From the IMG/VR virus record IMGVR_UViG_3300010354_000229, positions 1 through 37,868 of that record: a stretch of 37,868 bases of DNA, one strand, 5' to 3'. Position numbers and translations under genes: made by a program. Below the pieces are notes generated by a model. It saw only the letters and a program-made list of their open reading frames with translations. It did not search any database and was not told where the DNA came from. Shown here piece after piece: positions 4,898 to 31,622 of the stretch (positions are counted from its first letter, which is position 1; each line of letters opens with the position of its first letter). Source of the stretch: a virus.

Positions 4898-7800
4898 ATG
4901 GATACTCAATTATTTAATAAAATTGCAAATAAATCTGTAGGTGACGCAAGTAAAAATATCTACAAGAGCATACTTGAAAGTAAAATACAGTTATTGTCTA
5001 TTGAAAAAGTAGACAAAGATGGAAATATAATTAAATTTGATCTAGTTCCATGGACTAAGCAAACTCAATTTAAACAAGGTAATCCTTTCATTCGAATGCA
5101 ATATGTGGAGTCTATTGAATCTACATTTATGTACGGATCGCTGTACCTTTATGATTATTTAAATTGGGGTGATGAATTTGTTTTGAATGGAACTGAAAAA
5201 ATTATTCTTGGATGTACTGAAAGTATTACATCTGGTGATTTTGCCGAAAACACAACTAAAGATACACCACAAGTTTGCGTATTGAATGAATTTAAAGTCT
5301 TCAGTGTTAAAAAAATAACAGACGATTCCAAAATTGACATTTACATGAATAAGGCAGAACCTTCTTCTATTTGGAAGATAGATTTTACCAGCGAAGATCT
5401 AATATTTAAAAACTACAACGAATCATTTTTAGAAGAGTTTCAAGACTTTGTTGGTTATATTGCTGTTGATTCAAATGAACAAACAGATGAAAATTCTCCA
5501 AAAGGTCTAGTTAACGAAATATTTACAAAATTTGATATATTAGGTGATATTGAAGCAACAAAAAATGGTGTTTGGTTAAAATACAATAGTTTATCATGGC
5601 CCTGGATGAAACAAAGAGGGCAGATGAGGGTTCTGCAATTATTAAACCATCTTACAAATTATGCACAATCAAAAGAAAATCCAAATGCCGTAAATTATTT
5701 CTTCTGGAGAGATCGATATGGTTGGAATTTTAAGAGTATTGATAAATTACTCAGAGATCAACCAAAAGCAGTTGACGGATTCTTAGTTACTTTTAAAAAT
5801 GACAATCCAAATAGAATATACAATATTGAACTTACAAAAGAATTTAGTATACCCCAACTATATGAAACTGGTGTTATTCACACAAATTACTACAGAACAG
5901 ATCCAAATTACAATGATCCGTATTTAGACTTTATCGATACAAATTATGGGTTTACATTTTCAACAATAATCTATGACTACAATAAAGATTATGATTCTTG
6001 GTTACATATCAATCCACAAAAATTGCTTAATGAAACTTTTGAGACTGGTGTAACTAATGATATAGGATTAGTCAAACCTTCCACCAAAACAGATGACATG
6101 ATTTATGGTTACATGAGTAAACAAGTGCAAAACACTCCGTTTCCTCAGTGGTGGGATCATTTAGGTAAAACTTATTCTGGTCCTTGGAGTGATATAGCAT
6201 GGCAACCACAATTTGATTTGACTGAGTTGCATATTAAAGAATTCTATACTATTCAAAAGAAAATTCGTGAACCTCTTAAGAAAAAGAGAGATGAATATAA
6301 TCGCAAGAAAAACATCAAACGAAGGTGGGAAACATATCGATGCACAGTTTGTTGTCATCAAGACGGTGCATTAGGTTCCACAGCAGACATTCAATTGTTT
6401 AATAATCCAGGACCAGTAGATGGAGCAACTTATGCTATGTTGTTTGGTCCGACTGGAATGTTTGCTGAATTTAATCAACAATACAAAATTGTTTCTGTTG
6501 GATCTTTTACGGATCAACTAAATTATGATTCTGGGTTGACCATGCTGAATGGTCTTACACAATCTTATGATTTAACAAAACCACCATACAATCAATCAAT
6601 AGGTGATTTTTTTAATCTTTCAGACGATCCAACAAATTATGTAAACGGTGTAATCAATAGAGCAATAAATCAATACCAGATATTAATTGATCGCTTAGAC
6701 GAAAGAACTGCTGATTTAAATAGTTTTCTTGGTAATGTGAAATCATACAAGCAGACTGCTGATAATATTTTCTTTTCTTCGTTAGTTCCAAAAAACTCAG
6801 ATTATAAACGACCAATTGATCTTATCCAAGGTTACAAATACGTCGGAGATGCAATACCAGGCGAAACAATACTTGAATGGCCTATTACAGAATATGAATA
6901 TGGAATGGTTCCATCTACAGCAATACCAAAAGATTTTGGTGTTGGTGTTCCTGTTTTCAGAGATTCATCTCAGCAACAACAAAACAATTCTCCTAGATCA
7001 ATAACTTTTAGAGCTGGTTCAAATACATGTGGTTGGTGCGTTTCTTGTGATTGTTTTAGAGATCCAATCGGTTCTTTTAGCGGAAGCGGAGAATGTACTG
7101 CACAGTGTACTGCTTCTGGTGGCGAATTTGTAACTTCATGTAATTCTGGAGAATTTTTTGTTTCTGCCCCATGCGATTCCACTGGAAATTCTATACTTGA
7201 AGCAGCAACAAATCAACAACTTGCTGCTCAACAATTAATTTGTTCTTCAAATCCAGGATGTCAAGCTGGACCACCAACTAAAGTTGCATGTTTACCTGGT
7301 CCTGGTGGTATAAATTATTGCACAAATGTGTTTGCAACTGATCCAAATGCTCAATGGGATACATTTGCTGAGTGCTATGCATCTGGTTGTAATGAAATGG
7401 GTGAACAATATATTCTTTGTTGTAGACAAGACAACGCTTGTGGATTGTCAACTTTAGACCAGTGTTTGAATGGTGTTAATGGTCGAGTAGTTTCATCATG
7501 TTCTGAATGCACTGGAGATCCTGATGGTGGCGGCAACGGTCCTGTGGGACCACCTGGACCTCCAGGCCCTCCAGGTCCACCTGGTCCCCCAGGACCAACT
7601 GGTCCAACAGGACCAACAGGGCCTACTGGTCCATCTGGATTGCCAACAGAAGAGGATATCGTAGAATTGGATGTTCCTGTTGAATGTTCAAAGGATAAGG
7701 TTGTAAGAGGATACATCCGTCACATTAGTGATGCTGCTGTTTCTGCATATTCTCCAATATATGTTTATGCTGCTCCATATCTCTGGGCAGCACAGGATGC

Positions 7801-15508: not shown

Positions 15509-16264
15509 ATGGCATTGACCCCCCTGAATACAGATAATAATAGTTTTCCTCTGAGTGATTCTCCTTTTTTAAGTAGAGTTTCTACTCATTATAATGATAA
15601 CAAAAACTACACAATGCTGTCATTTAATCCAGGATTTGCTCTTCAAGCAGCAGAGTTAAACGAAATTCAAGAATTATTTTTCATGAATCTAAATTTAACA
15701 CAAAGAATGAATGCAAATTGGATAAAGTTAAATACAACCCAAACAACACCATTCAGTGCTCCATTTTGGGAAGGACTAATACCATTAGACCCTTCGTACT
15801 TGACAATTAATAGTTATACCTATAATGCAACATCGAATACTGTTAATTTTACATATACACTATCTGCGGGATGGTATCTATATACAGACCCAACAAGTAA
15901 ATTAAGTTTTTGGGTTTACAATAAAACTGCATTCAGTGCATCAACAAGTGCAATTGGAAGTTCTTTAGTTTACTATGGAACAAAAACAGCAAAAGGTCAC
16001 ATAGGTTGTTGTCAGACAAATGACTCATGTATAAATCAAGATAGCACTTTAAGAGATGGATCTCAACAATCATATCAAGAATTTACATGTGGTGCTTCAA
16101 GATTCAAAGTAATAGTAAATACGTCCAGTAGTTCATTTTTAGATTCTTATTTAAATTTAACTGCTGCACCTGTAGATTTTTCACACATCTTTATAGTTGA
16201 TTTAGTATCTACTGTAAAATCAATAAGATATCCAAATGGATATATTGTACAAGAAATAATATAA
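15509..16264 (+). CDS. Baseplate-associated fibre connector protein, unassigned
   Basis: 251 residues. The N-terminal motif FNPGFALQAAELNEIQELF (about 39-57) recurs at the N-terminus of fibre and connector proteins of T4-like aquatic phages and suggests a baseplate attachment domain. A beta-rich middle follows (TYNATSNTVNFTYTLSAGWYLY), then a small Cys cluster, GCCQTNDSC (about 166-174), and a C-terminal strand region with SFLDSYLNLTAAPVDFSHIF. No catalytic motif is seen. It begins the adhesion block directly after gp8, where T4 has gp9/gp10, so a connector for the long or short fibres is plausible. Ribosome binding site AAAGGAA is well placed. Confidence 0.6.
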   Translation: MALTPLNTDNNSFPLSDSPFLSRVSTHYNDNKNYTMLSFNPGFALQAAELNEIQELFFMNLNLTQRMNANWIKLNTTQTTPFSAPFWEGLIPLDPSYLTINSYTYNATSNTVNFTYTLSAGWYLYTDPTSKLSFWVYNKTAFSASTSAIGSSLVYYGTKTAKGHIGCCQTNDSCINQDSTLRDGSQQSYQEFTCGASRFKVIVNTSSSSFLDSYLNLTAAPVDFSHIFIVDLVSTVKSIRYPNGYIVQEII

Positions 16265-16280
16265 CGGAGTTATCACTTAA

Positions 16281-18533
16281 ATGGCAATTTCACCACTAAC
16301 AGGATCTTCAAGTTTTTATGATTGGTATGTGAAAACCAATGATGAAATCATAGCACAATTGAATGCTATGACAATTTATGGTGCTACAAGTGGTGATGGC
16401 GTTCGAATGGATGTTAATGGCAGTGGTATATTAACTGGAACTATAGGTGGTACATCTGGAAATATAAAATCTGGATTGACCTTTAGCGGAAAGGTTGACT
16501 TCACTGGAGAGGCAGTAGTACCAAATATATCATTTAAGATATATGGAATAACATCTGGATCTTCTGGATATACATTTGGTTCAGTTATAAGAACAAACGG
16601 AATAAACGGATATACATTAGCATGTGCAGATAATCCAGACAATGCAGAATCGTTGGCGGTTATCTCTGCGATGAATTCAACATATTCTGTTGCATCTATG
16701 CTAGGAAAAATAACTGGCAATTTTAATACTGTTGCTGGTGGAACTCTTTTTTCTGGTTGCATTTACTTTTTAGATCCAACAAATCCAGGAAAAATAACAA
16801 CAACAGAACCAGTAACAGTTGGACAAGTCTCAAAACCAGTCATAATGGGATTGAGTGGTGATACTGGAATAATACTACAATACAGAGGTAATTACTTAAA
16901 CGGAACTTCCACTTTAGGTCTTTCGGGAAACAATCGAATTTATGTAATTTTACCTTCCTCATCATCATCAAATGGATTTACACCTGGTGCATTTGTTTCC
17001 TACTTACCTAATGTTGGTACAAAAGATGCTTTGTTTGATGCATATCTAGTGGGAACTGGCAGAACTGCTTATGATGGTTGGTTTGTCAGTCAATCGTCAT
17101 CTTCTACAGTTACATCGCCATTACCATTTGAAGAAGATTTTGTTGTTGGAATGATTGAAACTTCAATGAATTATGGATCAGATAAATTATATCAGGTTGT
17201 AACCAGAGGAGCATCTGAAATTGTTCCAACCAGTATTACGCCATCAGTTTATGGTTGGTGGACATTAAATGGAGTTACACTCCCACAACTAACACAATCA
17301 TCAAACAATATTGAAGAAAATAATCCTTATGAAAGATTATATGTTGGTTATAACTATAACAACACATCATTTGTTGTAGACATAAAACCACAAATAAGAA
17401 GTATATCTAGCAATAGATCAACAACAATTTCAACCAGTGCTCAAAATATTTCCACATTCAACAATGAAACATTTAATGGAGATTATAGCATTTGGCAAAG
17501 ATCAACTGGAAGAGATTCACAGTATACTTCAAATGTTTCAAAAGTATATTTTGCAGATCAATGGGTCAGAAGAACTTCTAGAACTTCATTAGTTTCTCAA
17601 TATTTACAAAGACAATCATTTAGTAAAACACAAACAACAGTTGAAGGTTCTCCACAATATTATGTTGATGTCAAATGCGTAGTTGATCCATCATCAATAT
17701 GGTTTGATGGACATCACTCAGTTGGTCACATATTACCAAATATAGAAGCATTGAATAATTCAGATATAACTGTAAGTTTCTACGCAAAGTGTTCACATTC
17801 TAACTATTCATTTAATGTTTACCTAGCAAGATACAATGGATCTACACTTGTAAGCAAAACAACAATAGGAACAGTCAATCCAACAACAAGTTGGGACAAG
17901 TATGTTATTAATTATACAGTTCCTGCGTTATCTGCTGGATCTTATTCTGATGATTATGTTGAGATTGGATTTGATATAGAACCAACAGTAAAAACTGCAT
18001 TTGATGCAAGTGTCTCTCTTGGTACAAATCTGTTTATGAGTTTTGCATCTCTATGTGTATATAATGGAACATATCTAAATCCAAAACATCTATTTGATTC
18101 CGACGAATCAAAAGCACTAAAAGCAAATAAATATTATTACACAACATACACAGGGTCACAGATAGAAGGTTCAGCAACACTTGCAACAAATGGTGGACCA
18201 GCACTCAATGCTCATGATATAACTTATGTTCCAAATTCAAATTATTCTTTAATTAAATTACCAGTTCGAATGCGAAAAACACCAACGATAACAACTTATT
18301 CTCCAGTAACTGGTGCTTTAAATGATGCGTTCAATGTTAGTGCTGGATTAGACTTAAGACAAACATCTGGAACTATTGGATATGACAGAAAAACAAGAAT
18401 TGCTCCCCTAAATTTAACAACAATTAGTTCAACATCAGATGAAACTAATGTTAAATTAACACTAGTAAATGGTATTGTTCCTTATGATGTAGTTAGTTGT
18501 CATGTAATAGCAGATGCGTCATATCCACTATAA
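16281..18533 (+). CDS. Tail fibre protein with carbohydrate-binding-like module
   Basis: 750 residues, preceded by CGGAG. Residues about 1-100 form an attachment and shaft-like part rich in Gly, Ser and Thr. Residues about 100-220 (GYTLACADNPDNAESLAVI, IYFLDPTNPGKI) form a module shared with the next gene. From residue 398 begins FNGDYSIWQRSTG, the hallmark opening of a phage fibre module, followed by YFADQWVRR and a jelly-roll-like region (ITVSFYAKCSHSNYSFNVYL) similar to carbohydrate-binding modules. The C-terminus is beta-rich and ends ASYPL. These features point to a receptor-binding fibre recognising host surface glycans. T4 gp10-gp12 positions correspond to this region, but the sequence is not like T4. 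Confidence 0.7.
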   Translation: MAISPLTGSSSFYDWYVKTNDEIIAQLNAMTIYGATSGDGVRMDVNGSGILTGTIGGTSGNIKSGLTFSGKVDFTGEAVVPNISFKIYGITSGSSGYTFGSVIRTNGINGYTLACADNPDNAESLAVISAMNSTYSVASMLGKITGNFNTVAGGTLFSGCIYFLDPTNPGKITTTEPVTVGQVSKPVIMGLSGDTGIILQYRGNYLNGTSTLGLSGNNRIYVILPSSSSSNGFTPGAFVSYLPNVGTKDALFDAYLVGTGRTAYDGWFVSQSSSSTVTSPLPFEEDFVVGMIETSMNYGSDKLYQVVTRGASEIVPTSITPSVYGWWTLNGVTLPQLTQSSNNIEENNPYERLYVGYNYNNTSFVVDIKPQIRSISSNRSTTISTSAQNISTFNNETFNGDYSIWQRSTGRDSQYTSNVSKVYFADQWVRRTSRTSLVSQYLQRQSFSKTQTTVEGSPQYYVDVKCVVDPSSIWFDGHHSVGHILPNIEALNNSDITVSFYAKCSHSNYSFNVYLARYNGSTLVSKTTIGTVNPTTSWDKYVINYTVPALSAGSYSDDYVEIGFDIEPTVKTAFDASVSLGTNLFMSFASLCVYNGTYLNPKHLFDSDESKALKANKYYYTTYTGSQIEGSATLATNGGPALNAHDITYVPNSNYSLIKLPVRMRKTPTITTYSPVTGALNDAFNVSAGLDLRQTSGTIGYDRKTRIAPLNLTTISSTSDETNVKLTLVNGIVPYDVVSCHVIADASYPL

Positions 18534-18544
18534 AGAGGTAAAAA

Positions 18545-19957
18545 ATGCCCAGTTGCAGTAACAGTTCAAATATATCATCAGCAATCAATTCATTAAACAT
18601 TACACAAGGGTCCGCTGGGTCTAGATTTTTTGTTCAAATTGATAGAGTCATAGGACTTACTGCTGGTGATGTAATTCGTTGGGACGTTCCAACGAATGGT
18701 TATACAGCATCAAAAGCAGACACTCCAGAAAATTCAGAAGTATTTGGAGTAATAGAATCATACAATCCAACTACTCAAAAATTTAATGTAGTTATGGGTG
18801 GTTCCGTGGATTTATCCGCATCTGCTCTTGCAGTCATTTCATCAAGTCCAACAGGTGGTGGTGGTGGAAATGATATTTATTTTTTAAGTGGTGTAACTGC
18901 TGGCAAATTACAAAACTTAGCACCAGATGATGTTACTCATATTATAAAACCAGTGTATCAAGTTGCACCCCATGGCACATACAGTGGAACTATTGTAAAT
19001 TATTCTGGATATAGACTTGGTGGCGAGGTTCAGGGTGGTCTTGACACAATCAGTGCTTTGTCAAAATTAGGATCAGTTCAACTTGTATTTGAAACCTATG
19101 AATATATGCCCCAAGAAGAACAATTGCTGAAAAGTTTTGGATTTGCATATAATGGAACTGGGGTTACTCCCATGTTTACTCTAAATCCAACTACAATTTA
19201 TGATTGGAAGTTAGAACATATTAGTTTAACAGACCCAACTCTAGTAAGATATGTAGATTTTAAAGATTTTTGTGATCGCGTAATGCCAACAATGAATGGT
19301 GGATGGGTTGAAAGAGTAAAAATTGATGCAGGATATAATGTTACAAGAGCAAATGTTCTTGGTAGAGCAGTACAGCAATTAAACCATGCATCATATGATG
19401 ATTCGATTATAAGTACATCTTGGTATGGTCAAGTTTTAGATTATGATCCAGATACAAGATATTTATTTATTCTAAGACCAGCATTTTTAAGTTCAGAATT
19501 AATAACAACAGTCATACCAACTTTAATTGCAGAGACAAACGTATCTTCAAATTCTGGAGCACTTTTAAATATAATGACTGGTGATGTTCAAAGTACAAAT
19601 TTTGGCACAGTTTTACAAACTGTAAAAATTTCTGAAACAAATACTAGTATTCAATTATTTGGGTTTGTGATTCCTTCTGTTACCTTTACATCAACAGGAA
19701 CTGGAACCCCAGAAGCATTTTATTTCCAAACCATATATGATCCATTTAATCAAAATGTTTACGAAACTACTGGAGTTTCACCAAAATTATACATGAGAAT
19801 CAAAAATAGAGGAATAAGTCTTGTTGTTCCAGATAATGTAACAGTAACTGAGTTATCATCAGATACGATTACTCTTGCAACACAAGATTTACAAACAATA
19901 ATAAACAATTTAACTGCAAGAATATCATGTTTAGAAAACGGTAGTGCCTGCCCATAA
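18545..19957 (+). CDS. Fibre or connector protein, paralogous module with the preceding fibre
   Basis: 470 residues, with AGAGG before ATG 18545. The N-terminal 30-160 residues mirror a module of the preceding protein: GYTASKADTPENSEVFGVI against GYTLACADNPDNAESLAVI, followed by IYFLSGVTAGKL against IYFLDPTNPGKI and a shared KPV...G...NY(R/S)G ending. A glycine run (GGGGG, about 109-113) forms a hinge. The remainder is unique, with aromatic and Thr-rich strands, and the C-terminus is a predicted short coiled coil (LATQDLQTIINNLTARISCLENG) that could trimerise. The role is likely a baseplate-distal connector or second fibre. Not recognised beyond that. Confidence 0.6.
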   Translation: MPSCSNSSNISSAINSLNITQGSAGSRFFVQIDRVIGLTAGDVIRWDVPTNGYTASKADTPENSEVFGVIESYNPTTQKFNVVMGGSVDLSASALAVISSSPTGGGGGNDIYFLSGVTAGKLQNLAPDDVTHIIKPVYQVAPHGTYSGTIVNYSGYRLGGEVQGGLDTISALSKLGSVQLVFETYEYMPQEEQLLKSFGFAYNGTGVTPMFTLNPTTIYDWKLEHISLTDPTLVRYVDFKDFCDRVMPTMNGGWVERVKIDAGYNVTRANVLGRAVQQLNHASYDDSIISTSWYGQVLDYDPDTRYLFILRPAFLSSELITTVIPTLIAETNVSSNSGALLNIMTGDVQSTNFGTVLQTVKISETNTSIQLFGFVIPSVTFTSTGTGTPEAFYFQTIYDPFNQNVYETTGVSPKLYMRIKNRGISLVVPDNVTVTELSSDTITLATQDLQTIINNLTARISCLENGSACP

Positions 19958-19969
19958 TGGAAGTAAAAA

Positions 19970-22900
19970 ATGATATACGGAAGTAGTCCACTTTTAGGTG
20001 TTAACACTGTTGGTATAACTGGCCCTACTGGACCAATAGGTCCAACAGGACCAGTTGGAAAAAGAGGTCCAACTGGTCCTGGTGCTACTGGATCTACAGG
20101 ACCGTCTATAACTGGAATGACACTAAACAGTCAGGGAAGAATAGCAAATCGATTTAGTGATAATATAATTTTTACTTCTGTTTCTGGAATAAAAGGCGAA
20201 ACTGGAAATTATTACATACCAGCAGATGCTGAACCACTTTCGACTCAGTTTAACATTGTTCACGGAGTATCATATTTTGAAGACGACGGCAATGGTGGTT
20301 TTCAAAACATAATCAGATTACGCGGATTTACTACGGCATCACCAGATGTTATTAGATTTAGTTTAAATGCACAAAATAATATTAATATTGATTATAGTAT
20401 TTTTAACTTAGCATATCTGGGAATATCAGGTGGTAGTTCTCCTCAATTAGCATATAATAAACCAGGCGACAAGCAATATGGTTTGACTGGAACAAACTAC
20501 GACACATCTATAAATTCAGTAAGCGCACAGATTGCAAATTATTCTGAAAAAATTGTTGTGGTAAATCCAACATATAAACCGTTTTCAACTGGTGGTGCTG
20601 TTGGGTTCTATTATTGGAATATAGATTGGGAACTTGGAAATATATTCAAGTTAAATTCATGGGCAAACGATCCAGGTGCTGCTGCATTAGATATTACAGC
20701 ACAACTGCTGAATATTCGTTCTCCTTCAAATGAATCTGTATCAAAAGGGTTGACTATAATTATTCCAAGTGGCATAACATCATCAAATAATTTTACTACA
20801 CTGTATGCTACAACTGATGATTTATCAATAGAACCAGATATAAATAATTTTGAAGAGGGTGTGTCGTGGCCTATAACTATACCACCATGCTTTACTGAAC
20901 ACATCGATGTGCTTAATCTAATTTCTGCTGGAGATGTATGGTATGCTTCATTTAGTCACTTAGGATACACATCTGGAGTTGCTGGTGATGTAGTTGGTGA
21001 TGTAAACAAAACGCCAACACTGATAAACATTGAAAATGTTAATTTTGATTGCGCAAGAGGAAATGCAATTACAGGTGTTTGCTGTCCAAGACAATGTGGT
21101 GTTACGGGATATGAAACCATAGAAGTTTTATGTGATGGTATTTTTTATATTGGTGTAACACTGGGTGGAACTTGTGATAACATTTGCAATCAACTTGGAG
21201 TTTGTTGTTTACAATTATCAGATCCGACAAATCCAATCTATAAAGCACCTGGATTTATTGCTCAATGTGAATGTGCAACGCTGGCAACAAACCAAGGTGC
21301 TCTTGATTACATATGGACACTAAAAGATGACAGCATATATTCAGTTGCAGATGTTAATTGCGAAAATGCATTTAACGATCTAGGATCTTGCTGTGACGGT
21401 CGTGGAAATTGCATACCAGATATATCAAGAGCAGATTGCATTTCGAGATCAGGATATTACCAAGGTGCTGGACTTGGTTGTGTTTCATCGAATAGTGTAA
21501 GACGATGTGTTGATGGAAATGGAGCGTGCTGCACACCATCACAAGAATTGTGTATAAATGGTTATACTGGATCAGAATGTATAGCAAACAATAATTTTTA
21601 CTTTGGGTATGGAACAAACTGTGTAGACTTTGATTGTACTAAATCTTGTTATCAAACACAAAGTGGTTTAGTTTTAACTCCTGGTTCTGAGTTTGCAGAT
21701 GGTATTGTGGTTGGTATATTTAATCCAAAGAATTCTATGTGCTATGGCAACACTGCATTCGGTGGAATTCCAACCTCACTACTTTCTGCTGGAAATTTAA
21801 CAACATCTACTGAAGTGTTTAATTTTTTAACTAATGGCGACGAAAGACAAGCAGAATTTTATAGCACAAAATACAATCAGAGTGGTTATGGATTTAATAG
21901 AACTTCCAATCACGCATGTGACAATGATTCTTGGATATTAATTGTTTCAAAGTATCCAGTGCTACTCAATGAAGATAGAACAAATATATTAACAACAGAA
22001 ATAACCGCAACATCATTAACAAACTTTACATGGAGTCATGGTGGTACTTATTTTGGTAACATAATGACAGACACAGGAGAAATTCCACAAAATAATGAAT
22101 CTGTACCACCATCTGATGGTGCATTTCCAGGTGACGCTACTCCAGATGAAGGATGGTATACCAGAAAATATTATGAATCTGAATTTATAAATGTTGGAGC
22201 AGATGGTCCTCTATATGGACCAATTCCCGCATTCCCAGCATCGTATTTTAAAAATATAGCAATTCCTGATGGGTTTGAACCTGGGGTATTAGGTATAAGT
22301 TATGACATGTTAACTGTCAAAGACAGACTTCAAGTTATATACCCAGCACCAATTGATCCAAATGCTGCATCTCCTAATATTATTTTTGATACAACCACAT
22401 ATGTCTCTGGCACTGGTCAATTCACATACAATCAATTAGACACAAATAAAACATCAGCAGATTGTGCAGCTTTGGGTTATGATTGCGATTGGAAACAAAT
22501 CAAAATTATATTATACAGAGATCCAGCAGATCAAAGCACAGTAACGTCAAATGCTCTAGTTTATTTTAGAGCAAACAAAACTAAATTTGATTATTATGGA
22601 AATGTATATTCATTCAACAATTGCTCAAATCAGTTTAATATTAATCCTGTTTGGAGAAGTGGGCATGGTCCATTTAGAGCAAGAACAACTTTAAATGGAA
22701 AGTGGAATTCAAACTGGGGTCTATACAACACAATAAGAATGATTTGTGCTGAGAGACATGCATATAATTTAGATTCTGGGTTTGATCCAATTTATTCTCA
22801 ATTCTATACATTTGGTGCAGGGTTTACGACAAATTACACAGCATGGAATTCTAGTCAACAAAGTTCCAGCGAGGCAATATCTGCATTTAATCAAATAAAA

Positions 22901-23395
22901 CTTTCCCAAACCGTGAACAACCCAGAGATGTCAAATTGGTATATTCCAAGTATTGATGAACTTTCATTCATTGCTGATAAAATTATTAATGAAAATTTAA
23001 ATGGGGTAATACAAGCAAGAGCTGGTATACCAATAGGAGATTCACGAATTGGAGCATCTGGATTGGTTTGGTCTTCAACTGGAACATTTAATGAAGGAAA
23101 TACAGCGGAGTATTGGCAACTAAATTCTATAAATGCATCAAATGATGTTTTAACATCCTATCCAGTAAAGCATGGAACTGAAGCATGGGGTCTTAAATTT
23201 GTGGATATTGTTAATGATTTAACAAATATCAAAGTAGGAAAATACAATAGATTGTCAAAAGCAGAAGTTCGTCCAGTTAGATTGGTAAGATGTGATGGAA
23301 ATTATTACACATCAACAAACAATCCAATAAAGTATTGGAGATTCTGGGGAATTCCTTCTTTGAGTATAGATAATATTATTAACGGACCACAATAA
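19970..23395 (+). CDS. Collagen-like, cysteine-rich adhesin with Lcl_C/DUF1566-type C-terminal domain (1)
   Basis: 1141 residues. Order: short N-terminus; collagen-like Gly-X-Y stretch (15-46, GPTGPIGPTGPVG); a beta domain (about 60-360); cysteine-rich repeats (369-562), where units of the type GxCC-x(n)-C-x(n)-C...G-x-C are seen four times, e.g. GSCCDGRGNCIPD and GACCTPSQELC; then a C-terminal half with an Lcl_C/DUF1566-like domain showing FADGIVVGIFNPKN at its start, WYIPSIDEL at 990, VWSSTGTF and VRPVR at 1100-1104. This domain ends the Legionella collagen-like adhesin and belongs to a C-type-lectin-like superfold. The protein is probably a trimeric host-binding fibre. Start ATG 19970 has only a weak ribosome binding site (GGAAG). 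Confidence 0.75.
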   Translation: MIYGSSPLLGVNTVGITGPTGPIGPTGPVGKRGPTGPGATGSTGPSITGMTLNSQGRIANRFSDNIIFTSVSGIKGETGNYYIPADAEPLSTQFNIVHGVSYFEDDGNGGFQNIIRLRGFTTASPDVIRFSLNAQNNINIDYSIFNLAYLGISGGSSPQLAYNKPGDKQYGLTGTNYDTSINSVSAQIANYSEKIVVVNPTYKPFSTGGAVGFYYWNIDWELGNIFKLNSWANDPGAAALDITAQLLNIRSPSNESVSKGLTIIIPSGITSSNNFTTLYATTDDLSIEPDINNFEEGVSWPITIPPCFTEHIDVLNLISAGDVWYASFSHLGYTSGVAGDVVGDVNKTPTLINIENVNFDCARGNAITGVCCPRQCGVTGYETIEVLCDGIFYIGVTLGGTCDNICNQLGVCCLQLSDPTNPIYKAPGFIAQCECATLATNQGALDYIWTLKDDSIYSVADVNCENAFNDLGSCCDGRGNCIPDISRADCISRSGYYQGAGLGCVSSNSVRRCVDGNGACCTPSQELCINGYTGSECIANNNFYFGYGTNCVDFDCTKSCYQTQSGLVLTPGSEFADGIVVGIFNPKNSMCYGNTAFGGIPTSLLSAGNLTTSTEVFNFLTNGDERQAEFYSTKYNQSGYGFNRTSNHACDNDSWILIVSKYPVLLNEDRTNILTTEITATSLTNFTWSHGGTYFGNIMTDTGEIPQNNESVPPSDGAFPGDATPDEGWYTRKYYESEFINVGADGPLYGPIPAFPASYFKNIAIPDGFEPGVLGISYDMLTVKDRLQVIYPAPIDPNAASPNIIFDTTTYVSGTGQFTYNQLDTNKTSADCAALGYDCDWKQIKIILYRDPADQSTVTSNALVYFRANKTKFDYYGNVYSFNNCSNQFNINPVWRSGHGPFRARTTLNGKWNSNWGLYNTIRMICAERHAYNLDSGFDPIYSQFYTFGAGFTTNYTAWNSSQQSSSEAISAFNQIKLSQTVNNPEMSNWYIPSIDELSFIADKIINENLNGVIQARAGIPIGDSRIGASGLVWSSTGTFNEGNTAEYWQLNSINASNDVLTSYPVKHGTEAWGLKFVDIVNDLTNIKVGKYNRLSKAEVRPVRLVRCDGNYYTSTNNPIKYWRFWGIPSLSIDNIINGPQ

Positions 23396-23397
23396 TT

Positions 23398-26300
23398 ATG
23401 AGTTCATCCAGAATTTTTTACCAACCCAAAGGAAGATCAAAACTTGCAGTTGGACCAACAGGTCCAACTGGACCAACAGGTCCAACTGGACCAAATGGTT
23501 TCACTGGACCAGGATATACTGGTCCGACAGGTAGTGGTATAACAGGAATTACTGGAAATAACGGAGCATTGTCTACTTCAATTTATTTTTATGGAAATAA
23601 TTTAACTTTTCCATTTATCAATGTAATAGGAAATGCAGGAACAAGTGCAAATTCATTTCAAACATTTGCAGTCAAATCATCAGGAATTGATAATGAAAAT
23701 TTATCAATAAGATTAGTAGATTTTGATTATAACGAATTTTTTGCAAATACCTTTGTTGACTTTAGACGAATAAACTTATCATCAAATGCTTTAAGTTTTG
23801 TTGGAAGTGTCAATAACAATAACTTTAGCATGTTTGGTGCTACAGTTTCTAATTTATTTCCACTAGGAAACACTGGTGAACTCCTATATTTAATAGGGTC
23901 AACAGCAGCAAGAGGTGCAAAAGATACAAAATGGAATCCACAAAGTTCACAAATGTACATAAACTTTGTGACTTTCAAAGAACCCCTTTTTCAAAATAAA
24001 AATTATCAAACAGTAAGAGGATCAAGCGGTGGATTTGAGTTTGCTCCCTATTTAAACTACGCACAGCACCCAACTTCATTTATTTTTTATGATTCATATG
24101 AAGGTGGATTAACTTTTGGTATTGGTAGTTTTGCAACTAAATTTGATCCAGAATTTGTAGCAAATGAAAATGATGTTTATGAATTAGATCCAAATAATAC
24201 CACTGTTACAAACATACCAAATAAAATTAATTTGTCTATGTATTTTGGAATGACTGGTGGTTCTCTTGTCAATCAAATTAATTTTATGAGTTTGTCTGGG
24301 TATACTGCAAAAGACAAATTTACACCTCAAAACTTTACAAGAGAGAAAATTGGATCTTGCTGTTTTTGTGAAAAAGAAACTAGCGATAAGATGTGTTTAG
24401 ATTATGTTTCTGAGGAATATTGCAATTCTATATTTGGAAATTTTAGCACAACTGCATGTCTTCAAAGAAATACATCAAGTGATTGTTATTTTGAAGGCAC
24501 TTGCTGTGTATATGATTCAGAACTCCAAACAACAAAATGCTTAAACACAACAGAAGCAAAATGCAACAAATATGGAGGATTATTTACAGTTGGAAAAGTT
24601 TGCAATGTATGGACAAGCGAATCTGACTATTTTGAATGTCCTACTAATTTTTGCACAGGATTTCAGATTGGAAAGTGTTGTGTAAAAGGAAGATGCTATA
24701 CGCTCAGAGAATATGAATGCAACGAAATACAAAGTGCTTTATTTTTCCCAGGACAAGGTTGTTCTGGTGAATTAACAGATCCTGTTTGTTGTTACGCAAA
24801 TAATTTTCTAGGAGCATGTTGCAAACCTGGAAATGTTTGCGAAGATGGCGTAAGACCACAAGATTGTACTGGCACATTTATGGGATTTGGGACTGATTGT
24901 GCAACTGTAAATTGTTGTGGCAACACATATCAATTGGATTACTTTACAGGCAATGAAGCAGTATCTTGCAAAGCACTAGGACCATCTCAAATAGTAAATT
25001 GTTTAAACATTGGAGATAAAATTGGTGGTGGTTATTTTGCTGGATTTATTGGTATGCCAAATCCATGTTCTTTCTATTCAACGCCACAAACTGCTTTTGG
25101 TGAACCACTTGAATGTATGATAAGTCCTAGAGGAAATGTAATATCAGATAGAAAATGGAGATGTCAAACTTGCAAAGGCAATGTTGCTGGAACAAATAAT
25201 GGCGGAATTGAATATTTTGCAAGAACATATCCAGAGACTTTACCAGTTCAATCATTACAATCAAAATGTTTGTTAAAAACAGGTGTTCCTTTTGTACAGC
25301 AAGTATATACACTAGATAATATCACATGGCCAGATGCAAGAATGTTTACTGGCAATCCACAATACATTCAAGAGAATGGAACATTTTCTTATAGTTTAGT
25401 CGATACTGGTATTGCCGTAGAATACATGGAATCTACTAATAATTTGTACAAATACTTAGCAACTAATGTTTATGGTGCAAATAAAATTCATATAATGTGG
25501 GCATTGATTGTTGCACCAGAAGATGTGGAAATAGAAGGAAACAAAAAATTGAGATGGGGAATGTCAGAAGGAAGACATATTCCAGATGCCCAAGGAAACC
25601 CTGTTGAAATTTTAATAGAGGAAGTAACAACATATCCAGTTGATGGTTTACTAAACACAAGAATTTATGACAAATCATCAACTCAAAACCCACAAAGATG
25701 GTTTAGAGATTTAGATTCTGATGGAATTGATGAAGGGGCATATACTAGATTCTCATTTGGTTCTAGAAAATATTGGAATGCATCTGTGGATAAAACATCA
25801 ATAACCACTGATATTAATAAATTCAAAACAGAATATACCAAAATATGGGAAGATAATAATCCTTTAGATTCTGCTATTCGTTCTATATCAAATATAAACG
25901 ATTCAAATCTTTATGGTTATAATGATTGGTATATCCCAAGCATAACTGAACTAAATTATATCTACAATTCTTCTACTGAATTAAATTCAGCAATGTTGAT
26001 TGATGGGTCAAGACCAATGACACAATCAGAATATTGGAGTTCCACAAGTGTTTGTAGACTAACTTCGTGGGATCCAATAAATCATTTAAATAAAGACTCG
26101 TACAGAGTTGAACAATTAAATTCAACATTAGAACCATCACTTGCTATTAAAAGATTAAAAAGCACAGATCAACCTTTCAACCTGACAGAAGATGATGCCT
26201 ACAAGTTCACAATGTCGGTTTGTAATGGTCAAAAAATGTTAACACAAGTATTCAATACAAACGTTATTGAAAATCAAGGAAAAATGTTAAGTAGAATGAG

Positions 26301-26463
26301 AAATGAAAAAACCGCATCATTAAGACCTGTCAGAAGAATACCAATACTGGTAACATGTAATGGGTTCTACTATTCTGAAACTATTATGAATGGTTCATAC
26401 TATAGCGATGAAACAAATAAATGCGCATCATGCATAGATATAATTGAAGGAATGTGTTCATAA
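23398..26463 (+). CDS. Collagen-like, cysteine-rich adhesin with Lcl_C/DUF1566-type C-terminal domain (2)
   Basis: 1021 residues, starting two bases after the preceding paralogue. Collagen-like stretch at 19-56, with four consecutive GPT triplets near its start; beta domain to about 310; cysteine-rich block 319-508 with units GSCCFCEKE, GTCCVYDSE, GKCCVKGRC and GACCKPGNVC; and a C-terminal Lcl_C/DUF1566-like domain starting at KIGGGYFAGFIG and containing WYIPSITELNYIY at 844, YWSST at 879 and LRPVRR near 975. The best-preserved lectin-like domain of the three in this window. It is likely a host-binding fibre; whether it assembles with its neighbours as a heterotrimer or replaces them is unknown. 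No strong ribosome binding site is visible, so coupling to the gene before is likely. Confidence 0.75.
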   Translation: MSSSRIFYQPKGRSKLAVGPTGPTGPTGPTGPNGFTGPGYTGPTGSGITGITGNNGALSTSIYFYGNNLTFPFINVIGNAGTSANSFQTFAVKSSGIDNENLSIRLVDFDYNEFFANTFVDFRRINLSSNALSFVGSVNNNNFSMFGATVSNLFPLGNTGELLYLIGSTAARGAKDTKWNPQSSQMYINFVTFKEPLFQNKNYQTVRGSSGGFEFAPYLNYAQHPTSFIFYDSYEGGLTFGIGSFATKFDPEFVANENDVYELDPNNTTVTNIPNKINLSMYFGMTGGSLVNQINFMSLSGYTAKDKFTPQNFTREKIGSCCFCEKETSDKMCLDYVSEEYCNSIFGNFSTTACLQRNTSSDCYFEGTCCVYDSELQTTKCLNTTEAKCNKYGGLFTVGKVCNVWTSESDYFECPTNFCTGFQIGKCCVKGRCYTLREYECNEIQSALFFPGQGCSGELTDPVCCYANNFLGACCKPGNVCEDGVRPQDCTGTFMGFGTDCATVNCCGNTYQLDYFTGNEAVSCKALGPSQIVNCLNIGDKIGGGYFAGFIGMPNPCSFYSTPQTAFGEPLECMISPRGNVISDRKWRCQTCKGNVAGTNNGGIEYFARTYPETLPVQSLQSKCLLKTGVPFVQQVYTLDNITWPDARMFTGNPQYIQENGTFSYSLVDTGIAVEYMESTNNLYKYLATNVYGANKIHIMWALIVAPEDVEIEGNKKLRWGMSEGRHIPDAQGNPVEILIEEVTTYPVDGLLNTRIYDKSSTQNPQRWFRDLDSDGIDEGAYTRFSFGSRKYWNASVDKTSITTDINKFKTEYTKIWEDNNPLDSAIRSISNINDSNLYGYNDWYIPSITELNYIYNSSTELNSAMLIDGSRPMTQSEYWSSTSVCRLTSWDPINHLNKDSYRVEQLNSTLEPSLAIKRLKSTDQPFNLTEDDAYKFTMSVCNGQKMLTQVFNTNVIENQGKMLSRMRNEKTASLRPVRRIPILVTCNGFYYSETIMNGSYYSDETNKCASCIDIIEGMCS
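23452..23496 (+). repeat. 18-bp tandem repeat encoding Gly-Pro-Thr
   Basis: Units GGACCAACAGGTCCAACT occur twice in tandem (23452-23487), followed by a partial third copy. The exact 18-bp period means recombination or slippage can change the repeat number in steps of six residues without shifting the frame. Confidence 0.85.
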
Positions 26464-26464
26464 T

Positions 26465-29400
26465 ATGAGTAGTAGCGCAATCACAAATATTAAAGTAGGT
26501 GGTCCAGTTGGTCCTATCGGTCCAGTTGGTTCTATCGGTCCAACTGGTTCAACTGGTCCTACTGGTGTTTCTGGATCAGTTGGAAACAGAGGATTATACT
26601 TCTTATCAGCAGAAGCATCTGGAAATAATATCATTGTGGAATTATCAGATGGTACAACTTACGAAATATTTGGTGCATTTAAGGGATCAACATATTTTGA
26701 TTCTGATGCAGTTAAAGGTCAAAACAAATCAGGATCAGGATTTACTTTATTCAGTCAAGTTGTAGGTGGAACATATTATTTTAGAGGGATAACCGCAACA
26801 GGTTCAATATATCTTTCATATACTGGACCTAAAAATGAATACATTTCCATAGACAGTATATACCATAATATTGATGTTCAAGGATCTTTGGATGCATTGT
26901 CTTTAATTAATTATGGACTCCTGTATCTTTCAACACCAACTACAGCATCTGGAGTTCCAGTTAAAATATTTCCAAATCAAGGGCAATTAGGTCTTGCTGG
27001 TGCTATTAATTTTATAAAAACAACTCTAGAGTCTGGATCATCTGGTGATTATGGATATGCATTAAATACTGGGTCATATACCAAAATAGTCGGTCCAGTA
27101 AACAGAGAACAATCTCCAATATATTTAAATCTATCCGAAGCAGGAACATTTGTTGTTGACACTCCAATTGGAATAGCAGGATTTACTGGATTATCTGCTT
27201 TTTCATCAAATGAAGTAATTTCATTTACAATTGTATTTGAATCCGAGGATGTTTGGTATTTTCCACAAAATGTATACTTTGAACAGGGAGAAAATTATTT
27301 AACTTGTGGAAAAAATATTGTTGGATTTATGTCATATGACGCTGGGCAAACTTGGTTAGCAACAGTCTCACAGAGAGGTCACAATGTAAGAAATCCAGAT
27401 ACACAATGCAAACCAAATTATCTTTACGGTTCATGCTGTTATCAAAATCCAGATGGAACATATGAATGTTCTGATTATATGACAAAAGCACAATGTGATT
27501 TTTATTTTGGTGTATTCAATCCACTAAAATCATGCGATGAGACATGCGGAAAAGGAAATGGAATCTGCTGCACTAATGGTAAATGCATCGAAGCAGCATC
27601 AGTTGCAGAATGCGATCTTTTTGGTGGTTCTTTTTACATTGGAATAACTTGTGGTACTTATCCAAACGATCCAGCAGGACCAAATTATGGAGAACCAATA
27701 CAAAATGGAAAATTGTGCTATGATCCATGCCTTGAACCTGTGGTTTGCTGTAAAAATGGAAAATGTTTAGGAGCATATTCTAGAATTCAATGTGAACAAA
27801 TTTTAGGTGGAGTTGCTATACAAAATCAAACATGCGCAACAGTAAATTGTTGTGATTATACAACAACTGTTGGTGCTTGTTGCGTATGCAATGGAGCAGC
27901 ACAACCATCATGTTTTGATAATATAACAAAAGAACAATGTGATGCTTTGTCTGGTATTTTTATGGGAGAAAATGAAAAATGTGACCAGATATCATGCAAT
28001 TGTGTTTGTAATGTTGGTGATGCGCCAAAATTATATGCATGTGTCGATGGCAATTGTGTTGAAAGTGTAACAGGAACATATACAGATCCAAACTGTTTAA
28101 ACCAATGTACATCGACACAAAGATATTCATGTGTTAATGGTATATGCCAATTAACACAGGGTGGAGAATATGGTGAACCAACATGTGGTGGAAATTGTCA
28201 ACAATCTCCTCCACCACCAGAGGGAGGATTTCAGTGTGTGTTTGGTTCATGCGTTGCAACTCCTGGTGGATCTTTGCCAGCAGGATGTAATGGATCATGT
28301 TTACCTGATATAGATGATCCCAATGAAAATGATGGTGGACCTAATGCAGATCCAGATGGTAATGGAATTGGTGGACCAGGGGGACCAAATGGTCCTGGCG
28401 GTCCTGGTGGTCCTGGCGGTCCACCAGCAGACCCCTGTGGTGCAACAGTAAGCGATTCTTGTGGATGTATGACCTATTATTGGTGTGAAGAATTTAGAAA
28501 TTCTACATCTGGACAAATTCAATTTATTGAACACGAAGTTAGAAGAAAAATTTGCAATTCTGTTGCAAGTATTGAACCAAGAGACATGTGTACAGTAATT
28601 GGTGAAGGGTTTGATTGTGGAGGTCAAACAGATCCACTAGTAGATTTTGCAAGATGTTGTTATAAGAGAAGAAATGGTAATGTGTGTGGAAGTGGAAATG
28701 CTAATGATTTATGCAACAAAAATTGCGACGATCCAAACATAAATTGGAATTTATGTAATCAATTAACAGATGATGAAATCTTTAATTTTATTGGAATTAA
28801 AACAAAATTATGCCGTCAATTTTTAACTGCTTGTACTGGTGCGGACAGAATTAAATTATTAATTTGTTGCAACAATAGTGGATCTGGATGTAGTAACATA
28901 AGCCTATGTCAATTCAATGATAATTGTTCTAATTCGTTTAGTCCAGTAAGTTGCAGTGAAGTGCAACGAAATGATCCTTCTTGCAGTTCATTGGGAGATC
29001 ATCCACCAGGAGATCCAGCTCCTCCCCCATATACTGGTGTTTGGTTACAATATGGTTATTGCGATGCTGAGGCAACTCCACCAAGGTGCAATTTTGTTGC
29101 TGCATATGATGCTTGTAGCGCACAGTGTGTTGCAATTCGAGATGCGTGCAGACGATATGAATGCACCAAACTTGGATTAACCGATTGTCCTGGAATATGG
29201 GCTTGGGATGGATGTGGGTGTCCATCACCAGGTGCTGGATTTGGTGGTTGTCCAGGTAGCGAACTAAATCCTGCACCTCCAGTACCTCCTTCTCCATTGA
29301 CTGATGGTTCACTGCCACCAGAAACACCTTCAGTAGCAGAATATGACATAAGTTTAATTAGACCAAAAGATCCCAATATAAAATTAGTTAAAATTAAACT

Positions 29401-29470
29401 AAATAATGAGGATACATGTATTCCAATTCTATGTGACGATGATTGTAATGGATATACTTTCTGCGAGTAA
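26465..29470 (+). CDS. Collagen-like, cysteine-rich adhesin (3), without lectin-like domain
   Basis: 1001 residues from ATG 26465, chosen over an upstream TTG (26444) inside the previous gene because it lies one base after that gene's stop and gives the same MSSS start as the paralogue upstream. Collagen-like stretch 12-43; beta domain to about 315; four Cys units from 322 (GSCCYQNPDG, GICCTNGKC, VVCCKNGKC, GACCVCNGA); then three shorter units of the form CVxGxCV...C...C; a proline hinge (QQSPPPPEGG); a second Gly-rich collagen-like stretch (about 636-655, GGPGGPNGPGGPGG); and a long Cys-rich tail to the end (YTFCE). It lacks the Lcl_C domain, which instead occurs in the next gene in the same reading frame. 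Confidence 0.72.
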   Translation: MSSSAITNIKVGGPVGPIGPVGSIGPTGSTGPTGVSGSVGNRGLYFLSAEASGNNIIVELSDGTTYEIFGAFKGSTYFDSDAVKGQNKSGSGFTLFSQVVGGTYYFRGITATGSIYLSYTGPKNEYISIDSIYHNIDVQGSLDALSLINYGLLYLSTPTTASGVPVKIFPNQGQLGLAGAINFIKTTLESGSSGDYGYALNTGSYTKIVGPVNREQSPIYLNLSEAGTFVVDTPIGIAGFTGLSAFSSNEVISFTIVFESEDVWYFPQNVYFEQGENYLTCGKNIVGFMSYDAGQTWLATVSQRGHNVRNPDTQCKPNYLYGSCCYQNPDGTYECSDYMTKAQCDFYFGVFNPLKSCDETCGKGNGICCTNGKCIEAASVAECDLFGGSFYIGITCGTYPNDPAGPNYGEPIQNGKLCYDPCLEPVVCCKNGKCLGAYSRIQCEQILGGVAIQNQTCATVNCCDYTTTVGACCVCNGAAQPSCFDNITKEQCDALSGIFMGENEKCDQISCNCVCNVGDAPKLYACVDGNCVESVTGTYTDPNCLNQCTSTQRYSCVNGICQLTQGGEYGEPTCGGNCQQSPPPPEGGFQCVFGSCVATPGGSLPAGCNGSCLPDIDDPNENDGGPNADPDGNGIGGPGGPNGPGGPGGPGGPPADPCGATVSDSCGCMTYYWCEEFRNSTSGQIQFIEHEVRRKICNSVASIEPRDMCTVIGEGFDCGGQTDPLVDFARCCYKRRNGNVCGSGNANDLCNKNCDDPNINWNLCNQLTDDEIFNFIGIKTKLCRQFLTACTGADRIKLLICCNNSGSGCSNISLCQFNDNCSNSFSPVSCSEVQRNDPSCSSLGDHPPGDPAPPPYTGVWLQYGYCDAEATPPRCNFVAAYDACSAQCVAIRDACRRYECTKLGLTDCPGIWAWDGCGCPSPGAGFGGCPGSELNPAPPVPPSPLTDGSLPPETPSVAEYDISLIRPKDPNIKLVKIKLNNEDTCIPILCDDDCNGYTFCE
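26501..26536 (+). repeat. 18-bp near-perfect tandem repeat in adhesin 3
   Basis: GGTCCAGTTGGTCCTATC is followed directly by GGTCCAGTTGGTTCTATC, 17 of 18 bases identical, encoding GPVGPI and GPVGSI at the start of the collagen-like stretch. Confidence 0.85.
28370..28429 (+). repeat. Second collagen-like Gly-Gly-Pro repeat DNA in adhesin 3
   Basis: GGTGGACCAGGGGGACCA and following nonamers encode GGP/GPN triplets. The composition (GGP rather than GPT) differs from the N-terminal stretch. Confidence 0.8.
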
Positions 29471-29476
29471 CCGCCT

Positions 29477-31027
29477 ATGTCTGTTCAATTCCGATCAAGA
29501 ATTAAATCTGTTGTGGACTACTCAAAAGTCTTAAATGGCATTGGGGTTTGCTGCGACAAGGATGGAAATAAATCATTGAAAGCATTTTATGATTGCTTCA
29601 ATGATGGTGGTAATTATTTTCCTTCCGAATCATTAGACGCAATTGAGTGTCCACCAGCGGATGCAGAAAAAGGATGTTGCTGTGCTTGTTCATTTGTAGA
29701 AAATTTAGAACTTTTACCCTATCCTTGGGATTTTACATTAAACACTCCAGCACTAGGAACCACCCCATATTACGAATCTGGTGTAATTTGTAATATTACA
29801 CGATGCGAATGCGACAGACTAAAAGGAAAATTTACACCATCAGGCGAGTCTGAAGTCATACTGTCATCAGACAACATTGAGCGATATTGCTATAAAGAAG
29901 TACCTGAATTTTTCAGTGGGGCATTAATAGATGCCAGATATCCAAGAGCGTGTTGTCATATTAGAAGAGATCCAGACACTGGATACCCAACAGAAGTTGT
30001 TTGTGATAATGTTTGCTCTCAGTCAGATTGTGCTGTATTAGGCAATTCACAAAATCCAGCAGTATATAGCGAAAAAGCATCTTGTGGAAATTATCTTTAT
30101 TTAGACGGTTCAGGACTGAATGGATTAGCACAATGTAATTCATCTCTTAAACTGTCACAGATGGTAAATAAGTCAACAGATTATACAGATGTTGAATATG
30201 GTTCTTGTTATGAATTAGAAAAGAACATATCTGGAAACTTAGAATATAATTGCAATATTAAACCAAAATCATTATGTAGCGGTTATTGGGTATTGCCAAA
30301 GAATGCAGCAAAATACTGCAATGATGTTTATACACCAAATGATCCAGTAAAAGTAAATAATGTATATGATGTTCAAAAAATGACATCAACTGAATTTAGT
30401 TCTTTAAATTTAAATATAGGACAAGAATATCAAGGTGGAATTTATATTGGAACATTTGAACCAGGAACACCAGTAAATCCAAAAGGATCTGCATTATTTG
30501 GAAATATTAATTTTGGTGATCCCGTAGTTTTTACTCCAGAAAATGTAGGAATTGGTGGATCTCATAAAAAGTGGGCATTGTTTGTTGATGAAACCCCATA
30601 TTCAGTTCCTTTCATAGAAGAAGATGAACAAGATGTAAATTACGAAACCTCTTTATGGGATGGGTATTATAATACTTATGGAGATCAAAAAACATTTGGT
30701 GGAATAAAAACAAAATTGACCAATAGTATTCGATATAAAAATAGAAATGGATTTATCGATTACTACTTGCCATCTATTCATGAAATATATTTCTATTGGA
30801 AATATTTGATTGCTGATAAAAAACCAATTGTCTTTGGAAACTACATAACATCAAGTATTTTTAATACAAAATACATTAACTCACAAACAAACAAATTTAA
30901 GATAAATAACAATGGACTGTTTTATGTTGGAAGAATGCTAGAAGACTACAGATACTCTACTGTACTGTCATTGAAAACAAAAACATTATACGCATTATTT
31001 TTTAGAAAAATTGTAATTGAGGATTGA
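29477..31027 (+). CDS. Cysteine-rich protein with degenerate Lcl_C/DUF1566-type domain
   Basis: 516 residues, starting six bases after, and in the same frame as, adhesin 3. There is no collagen stretch. The N-terminus has one Cys unit (GVCCDKDGN), a CCCAC cluster near residue 67-71, and further Cys pairs to about residue 280. The C-terminal part begins IGQEYQGGIYIGTFEPG, the same opening as the lectin-like domain upstream, and has YYLPSIHEIYFYWKYL at 429, but the later YWSST and VRPVR motifs have decayed to weak matches (YITSS, LYALFFRK). It may be the separated C-terminus of a once larger adhesin 3, or a partner subunit. Ends with TGA. Ribosome binding site not obvious. Confidence 0.65.
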   Translation: MSVQFRSRIKSVVDYSKVLNGIGVCCDKDGNKSLKAFYDCFNDGGNYFPSESLDAIECPPADAEKGCCCACSFVENLELLPYPWDFTLNTPALGTTPYYESGVICNITRCECDRLKGKFTPSGESEVILSSDNIERYCYKEVPEFFSGALIDARYPRACCHIRRDPDTGYPTEVVCDNVCSQSDCAVLGNSQNPAVYSEKASCGNYLYLDGSGLNGLAQCNSSLKLSQMVNKSTDYTDVEYGSCYELEKNISGNLEYNCNIKPKSLCSGYWVLPKNAAKYCNDVYTPNDPVKVNNVYDVQKMTSTEFSSLNLNIGQEYQGGIYIGTFEPGTPVNPKGSALFGNINFGDPVVFTPENVGIGGSHKKWALFVDETPYSVPFIEEDEQDVNYETSLWDGYYNTYGDQKTFGGIKTKLTNSIRYKNRNGFIDYYLPSIHEIYFYWKYLIADKKPIVFGNYITSSIFNTKYINSQTNKFKINNNGLFYVGRMLEDYRYSTVLSLKTKTLYALFFRKIVIED

Positions 31028-31049: not shown

Positions 31050-31622
31050 ATGTCATGTGCGTGTGGAAAACAACAAAAATGTGGTTGTCGTAGGAGTGCA
31101 CTTATGGAAAATGAAAACATCGAATTTAGAAAAGACGAAATCAAAGAACAAGGCGGATTAAAGAAAAAACTAAGCATGATGCAAAGTTTTGCTTCTGCTA
31201 TCACATCAAGAGGTTTAAAAAATGAAAAAGTCACTAAACCAATAAAACAATTAAGAGTTTTATCTTGTTTTGGCGATAAAGCACAGGGTGGTGTTCTTCC
31301 ACCATGCGAACATTTAAAAAATAGCAGAACTCCTGGTAAGCATTTTTGTGGTGGGTGTGGGTGTGGCGATAGGCAGGGAACCTGGTTAGTCGCAGAAGGA
31401 GAACAATATTCAAAATTAGATTATCCAAGGTTATCATGTCCATTGCAGATGCCAGGATTTTCAAATTATGAACAATCAAAACCAGACGAATCAGTTAGTC
31501 CAATAACTAGAAGATATTATATTGAAAACTATCCATATGATAAATTAGAAAACATTAAAGTAAATACATTCGAACCACCCCCTCTTCCTGTCAAAAAGGA
31601 AGAACCAAAACAAGAAAATTGA
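31050..31622 (+). CDS. Small cysteine-rich protein, possible metal-binding
   Basis: 190 residues with a good ribosome binding site (AAAGGAATG). I do not recognise a named family. N-terminus MSCACGKQQKCGCRR has Cys at 3, 5, 11 and 13; a Lys/Glu-rich helix with Met/Phe follows (about 25-60); then a compact block with Cys73, Cys86, Cys100, Cys103, Cys105 and Cys130 around HFCGGCGCGDRQGTWL and YPRLSCPLQMPGFSNY. The C-terminal 50 residues are Pro/Glu/Lys-rich and probably disordered. CxxCxC spacing suggests zinc or an iron-sulfur cluster rather than disulfides in the cytoplasm. It closes the adhesin cluster and could be a structural partner or a chaperone for the cysteine-rich fibres; both are inference. 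Stop codons are tandem (TGA TAA). Confidence 0.7.
   Translation: MSCACGKQQKCGCRRSALMENENIEFRKDEIKEQGGLKKKLSMMQSFASAITSRGLKNEKVTKPIKQLRVLSCFGDKAQGGVLPPCEHLKNSRTPGKHFCGGCGCGDRQGTWLVAEGEQYSKLDYPRLSCPLQMPGFSNYEQSKPDESVSPITRRYYIENYPYDKLENIKVNTFEPPPLPVKKEEPKQEN

Follow-up and report, generated by a model that had tools for sequence, protein, structure and literature searches.

A syntenic four-gene set with collagen, cysteine-repeat and Lcl_C-like modules in the gp8-gp13 interval of uncultured T4-like phages

We analyzed a window of 37,868 bases, the whole of the linear virus record IMGVR_UViG_3300010354_000229 (possibly a fragment), and found that four adjacent plus-strand genes in it, g1 to g4, belong to a set whose members stay together and descend along with the core genes instead of being exchanged. 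The genes occupy positions 19970 to 31027 and encode 1141, 1021, 1001 and 516 residues, confirming a sequence-only reading of this DNA; the array, which that reading had put at over 11 kb and nearly a third of the window, measures 11.06 kb, or 29%. Phage receptor-binding parts are usually swapped first, whereas here a large set stays together over wide divergence, which points to one device that needs to be complete in order to work. The g1-g4 products are probably components of a single device for adsorption, which an uncultured T4-like lineage encodes in its gp8-gp13 interval. The region is a known kind of phage site, the host recognition cluster, in a new version as a fixed set.

The window has a T4-like gene order: gp53, a 1864-aa gene, gp25, gp6, gp7/gp8-like, the array region, gp13, gp14, gp15, gp16-like, gp17 and tail sheath. 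The array is flanked by baseplate genes (gp25, gp6 and gp8-like) on one side and by neck and tail genes (gp13, gp14, gp15 and gp17) on the other, and its genes run on the same strand with gaps of a few bases. The closest cultured phages by terminase are cyanophages, at ~57% identity. Identification as a cyanophage through the marker psbA was dropped, the gene being present in none of 10 related records, and two scans of genome contigs for host or cellular relatives returned no relative. A tblastn search of 50,697 phage records found nothing for g2, g4 or c190 (the gene that follows the array); the lineage is one of uncultured T4-like phages, with no cultured member detected in this collection at tblastn sensitivity. 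Among the baseplate genes we observe a TnsA-like endonuclease N-terminal domain (2537-2968, minus strand, E 1.1e-19). The 1864-aa gene between gp53 and gp25 (4898-10492) has a collagen run of 13 triplets at about 7529-7645 and a Cys-rich stretch with about 20 Cys at about 7031-7522, so these modules also occur outside of the array.

We take the interval from the gp8-like gene to gp13 to be the place of T4 gp9-gp12 and wac. The proposal that the array had replaced T4 gp9-gp12 is borne out as to the site, and in the eight genes scanned neither Pfam nor PHROGs gives a hit to gp9-gp12 or wac. These findings stop short of a replacement event: the T4 gp9/10 model, without a match in the window, matched no control either, the array is accompanied in the interval by genes of 251, 750 and 470 aa, and this interval departs from that of T4 in cyano- and pelagimyophages as well. 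The 251-aa protein (15509-16264, plus strand) has an N-terminal DUF4815/VrlC-like motif (PF16075 E 0.0019; phrog_877 E 2.5e-5) and is a short version of a large cyano- and pelagimyophage protein, its profile matching HTVC008M VrlC weakly at 26 bits. Next on the same strand are f750 (16281-18533, 750 aa, family unassigned), which has no Pfam or PHROG match and is found 5′ of the array in all relatives whose sequence reaches that far and also in array-less sister lineages, and f470 (18545-19957, 470 aa, family unassigned), which has no family match and is syntenic in relatives. Between the array and gp13 lies c190 (31050-31622, plus strand), a 190-aa Cys-containing protein that adjoins gp13 with and without the array; its median pairwise identity among relatives is 0.65, yet it has no tblastn match in cultured phages.

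In cyano- and pelagimyophages, this part of the structural operon is a hypervariable host recognition cluster, and tail fibers, collagen repeats and major-tropism-determinant-type domains have been reported for these phages (PMC7029224). The array has the corresponding position in the operon, close to the neck genes. However, the published cluster is a large, hypervariable island that lacks synteny and in which glycosyltransferases often occur (PMC7029224), whereas g1-g4 form a syntenic set of four genes; within the lineage we do not find the hypervariable, non-syntenic arrangement, and sister lineages are without the set.

The sequence-only reading had ascribed a shared set of modules to all four genes. 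We find collagen and Cys repeats in g1-g3 and Lcl_C-like ends in g1, g2 and g4, but g4 has neither collagen nor a called repeat, and g3 is without Lcl_C. The g1 gene (19970-23395, plus strand as all that follow; 1141 aa) encodes a collagen stalk with a Gly-X-Y stretch at 20012-20119 (8 uninterrupted triplets), a Cys-rich repeat region at 21074-21628 with two called repeats, and a divergent Lcl_C-like end whose core (22853-23140) matches PF07603 at residues 962-1057 (E 0.008). In g2 (23398-26463, 1021 aa), the collagen stalk (23452-23565, 7 uninterrupted triplets) is accompanied by a beta-type region, Cys repeats at 24352-24927 (three called 32-aa units) and an Lcl_C end with its core at 25864-26064 (PF07603 at residues 823-889, E 1.5e-7). 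A collagen stalk and beta-type region are also present in g3 (26465-29470, 1001 aa from ATG), with 11 uninterrupted triplets at 26501-26599, four called 32-aa Cys units at 27431-27985, and a variable, Cys/Gly/Pro-rich distal half (28022-29344) that changes faster than any other part of the array among close relatives. The collagen-less g4 (29477-31027, 516 aa) consists of an N-terminal QFRSRIK tag, a Cys-rich part and an Lcl_C-like end, with the Lcl_C-fold domain at 30383-31012.

The three collagen runs are N-terminal and each was reached in 0 of 2000 shuffles, while the same triplet test found no Gly-X-Y run in g4. PF01391 is sub-threshold in g2 and g3, and the collagen parts of the array match phage tail-fiber PHROGs. 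In relatives, collagen opens the N-terminus of 37 of 37 g2, 44 of 45 g3 and none of 54 g4 proteins. The Cys repeat is a 32-residue unit with six Cys (consensus ACCYKNGKCLDNVTRAECDALGGVFGPGKTCN; 2 units in g1, 3 in g2 and 4 in g3) for which nothing was found in Pfam or PHROGs; the array therefore supplies a unit that has no model in either collection. The Cys-rich N-terminal part of g4 is separate, with 23 Cys and no called 32-aa unit. Among relatives, one g3-like protein, at L055 745-9981, has 3078 aa and 359 cysteines, and another, at L056 2142-9989, has 2615 aa and 279 cysteines. Our literature searches found no papers on Cys repeats with phage fibers or on T4-like phages that combine a C-type lectin with collagen.

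Searches with PF07603, which had been proposed as a check on the C-terminal ends, matched g2 and, weakly, g1, and gave no match for g3 or g4. The g2 score is 32.1 bits for the whole protein (cut-off 34.9) and 36.3 bits, above cut-off, in a DNA-level search, and that of g1 is 16.9-20 bits. The profile matches 17 of 18 g2 orthologs, 6 of 15 g1 orthologs and none of 31 g4 orthologs; on contigs of 117, 108 and 123 kb, it matches g1 and g2 only. The ends of g1, g2 and g4 nevertheless align mutually in profile-profile comparisons (93-95%), centered on two motifs, one of DWYIPS type and the other WSST. In g3 orthologs, WSST occurs in one isolated case (L040), and most have a common conserved C-terminal tail instead; the g3 end is made up of the variable half plus this tail.

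A lectin-like fold, which the sequence-only reading had anticipated, is seen in the AlphaFold model of g4 (pLDDT 86), whose top match is 8q4e_A, the C-terminal domain of Legionella Lcl (Z 10.2, rmsd 3.0, 121 residues), with C-type lectins ranked next at Z 5.9 and below. Foldseek against the PDB found nothing for this model at E 0.001; only a second structure comparison (VIA), by Z scores and for the g4 model alone, ranked 8q4e clearly. Among viral structures, the model is closest to DUF1566 phage proteins, namely the uncultured Caudovirales entries A0A6J5SL79 and A0A6J7WP33 in BFVD, which at about 170-400 aa differ in length from g4 and were compared with it by structure alone. The predicted fold of the g4 C-terminus is Lcl_C-like; the fold thus gains a phage setting, and an example that Pfam misses. 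An AlphaFold model of whole g2 was set aside (pLDDT 44.5), and the fold assignment of g2 therefore rests on the Pfam match. Against the PDB, the sequence profile of the g2 end reaches 8q4e only at E 0.43, that of g1 reaches 4eps at E 0.026, and that of g4 gives nothing useful.

The suggested resemblance to Legionella Lcl, in which collagen is followed by an Lcl_C/DUF1566 end (PMC11162425; PDB 8Q4E), holds at the domain level for g1 and g2, and the modeled g4 end shares its fold. The collagen of Lcl is long, whereas the array has about 7-12 triplets together with inserted Cys repeats and a beta region, and g4 has no collagen. With the adhesin_Lcl equivalog NF046116 (cut-off 500), g1 scores 11.5 bits and g2-g4 have no match, so the resemblance does not extend to the adhesin family itself. 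For the C-terminal domain of Lcl, its authors leave both carbohydrate recognition and/or trimer formation possible (PMC11162425).

Using three anchors, g2, a g4 profile (48 loci) and a g2-end profile (53 loci), we fetched relatives of the array from records that are all possibly fragments; loci fetched by g4 or g2 contain that gene by construction, which is not true of their neighbors. Wherever the flanks reach, and with all three anchors, the order is almost always g1-g2-g3-g4-c190-gp13. The non-redundant junctions in uncultured contigs number 36 for g1-g2, 42 for g2-g3, 31 for g3-g4 and 57 for g4-c190, with few exceptions, and the set is still syntenic at about 32% identity in the g2 end. 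Additionally, the pairwise identity of each array gene tracks the averaged identity of gp13, gp14 and gp15; r is 0.76 for g1, 0.88 for g2, 0.84 for g3 and 0.90 for g4, each reached in 0 of 300 label permutations. The fixed order and the core-gene-like divergence favor a single adsorption device of several parts over alternative receptors.

Array-less lineages were sought with gp13, an anchor outside the array, and the counts hold among the matches listed. Among these, c190 is beside gp13 in nearly all gp13 relatives of more than ~50% identity, and the genes 5′ of it differ. In four loci (L094, L104, L106 and L107), the gp8-like gene, the DUF4815 gene and c190 directly follow one another, and three (L076, L091 and L119) have f750- and f470-like genes only at the site. 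We also observe a reduced set without g4 (L078), some relatives in which other genes adjoin g4, a split g4 (L071, L073 and L103) and a second g3-like gene on one 156-kb contig. The array thus belongs to particular lineages, occupies a variable site and, where present, is stable. In the 117- and 156-kb relatives, a second cluster of collagen/fiber-like genes lies elsewhere, so g1-g4 need not be the sole adhesins and the main receptor-binding fiber may be encoded outside of the array.

Variation is unevenly distributed along the array. Across orthologs, the g2 end has ~0.5-0.65 identity with hardly any gaps, whereas the g3 distal half is mostly at 0.22-0.36 and g3 proteins are about 680 to 3078 aa long; the g4 end, like that of g2, ranks with the better-conserved parts. 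The closely related L018 and L023 have g1, g2 and g4 at 0.94-0.97 identity and the g2 and g4 ends at 0.95-1.0, while g3 shows indels and blocks of 0.40-0.70, compared to 0.9-1.0 in other parts of the array. Part of g1 is also fast-changing. The earlier idea that the lectin-like ends read the receptor is not the one that this pattern favors: the ends are conserved in close pairs and the hot spot is the g3 distal half. Judged by where the sequences vary, g3 is a better candidate for the host-contact tip than the Lcl_C ends, and it may be named as the likely fast-changing tip of the device; the Lcl_C ends may be caps, or binders of something constant. Looking for a diversity-generating retroelement, we found no PF00078 reverse transcriptase in 13 records, all possibly fragments, and the direct repeats are only collagen codons and short chance matches.

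In the adsorption device that we favor, g1, g2 and g3 would form trimeric fibers anchored at the baseplate of the virion through short N-terminal tags, with collagen of about 7-12 triplets serving as a spacer of near 10 nm and the Cys repeats forming a shaft stabilized by disulfides. The C-type-lectin-like Lcl_C ends of g1, g2 and the collagen-less g4 would hold the trimers and/or bind a conserved surface glycan, and the fast-changing Cys-rich end of g3 would most likely track changes of the host surface. A heteromeric fiber, raised by the earlier reading, is compatible with these results. A more specific version, for now tentative, is a heteromeric organelle in which three collagen-stalked fibers and a collagen-less lectin-fold partner, with a new disulfide repeat, form a fixed set whose g3 tip evolves against the host while the lectin ends stay on a constant glycan.

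Because the g2 and g4 ends are strongly conserved, a role in assembly only is possible. In the strongest competing explanation, the lectin-like ends serve mainly to cap trimers, the set forms a collar, whisker or baseplate skirt with a structural role, and tail fibers encoded elsewhere choose the receptor. The near identity of these ends in L018/L023, the fiber-like cluster elsewhere in the two long relatives and the position of the array beside c190 and gp13 are all consistent with it, but the fast change of the g3 distal half and part of g1 is as expected of an exposed contact, and the corresponding pelagimyophage island is linked to host recognition (PMC7029224); we consider this explanation rather doubtful, though a serious contender. 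Independent adhesins for several alternative receptors, as the earlier reading had suggested, would explain three or four differing distal ends in one array, the paralogous N-termini of g1 and g2 (hhalign 99%) and the related Cys-repeat regions of g2 and g3 (hhalign 99%), but the kept order, the divergence that follows the core genes and the lack of a diversity-generating reverse transcriptase in the 13 records make this improbable. A role outside of the virion, with the products exposed at the surface or secreted in the course of infection (for example in superinfection exclusion), has a precedent in Lcl, itself a bacterial surface protein (PMC11162425), but is very hard to reconcile with a closely spaced same-strand run between baseplate and neck genes and with collagen parts that match phage tail-fiber PHROGs.

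Outside of the array, at L007 10145-11951, a stretch of roughly 350 aa that weakly matches intein splicing breaks the gp17 terminase frame, together with an overlapping HNH/NUMOD3 frame, and gp17 is likewise long or split in L043 and L048. In an array-less relative (L096 8125-12180), the frame of the gp15 tail-sheath stabilizer extends to 1351 aa, with the gp15 match in the first 225 residues only. One part of the 156-kb relative (L199-L200; G016 120001-156711) has a G+C content of 0.42-0.45, compared to 0.30-0.36 in the remainder.
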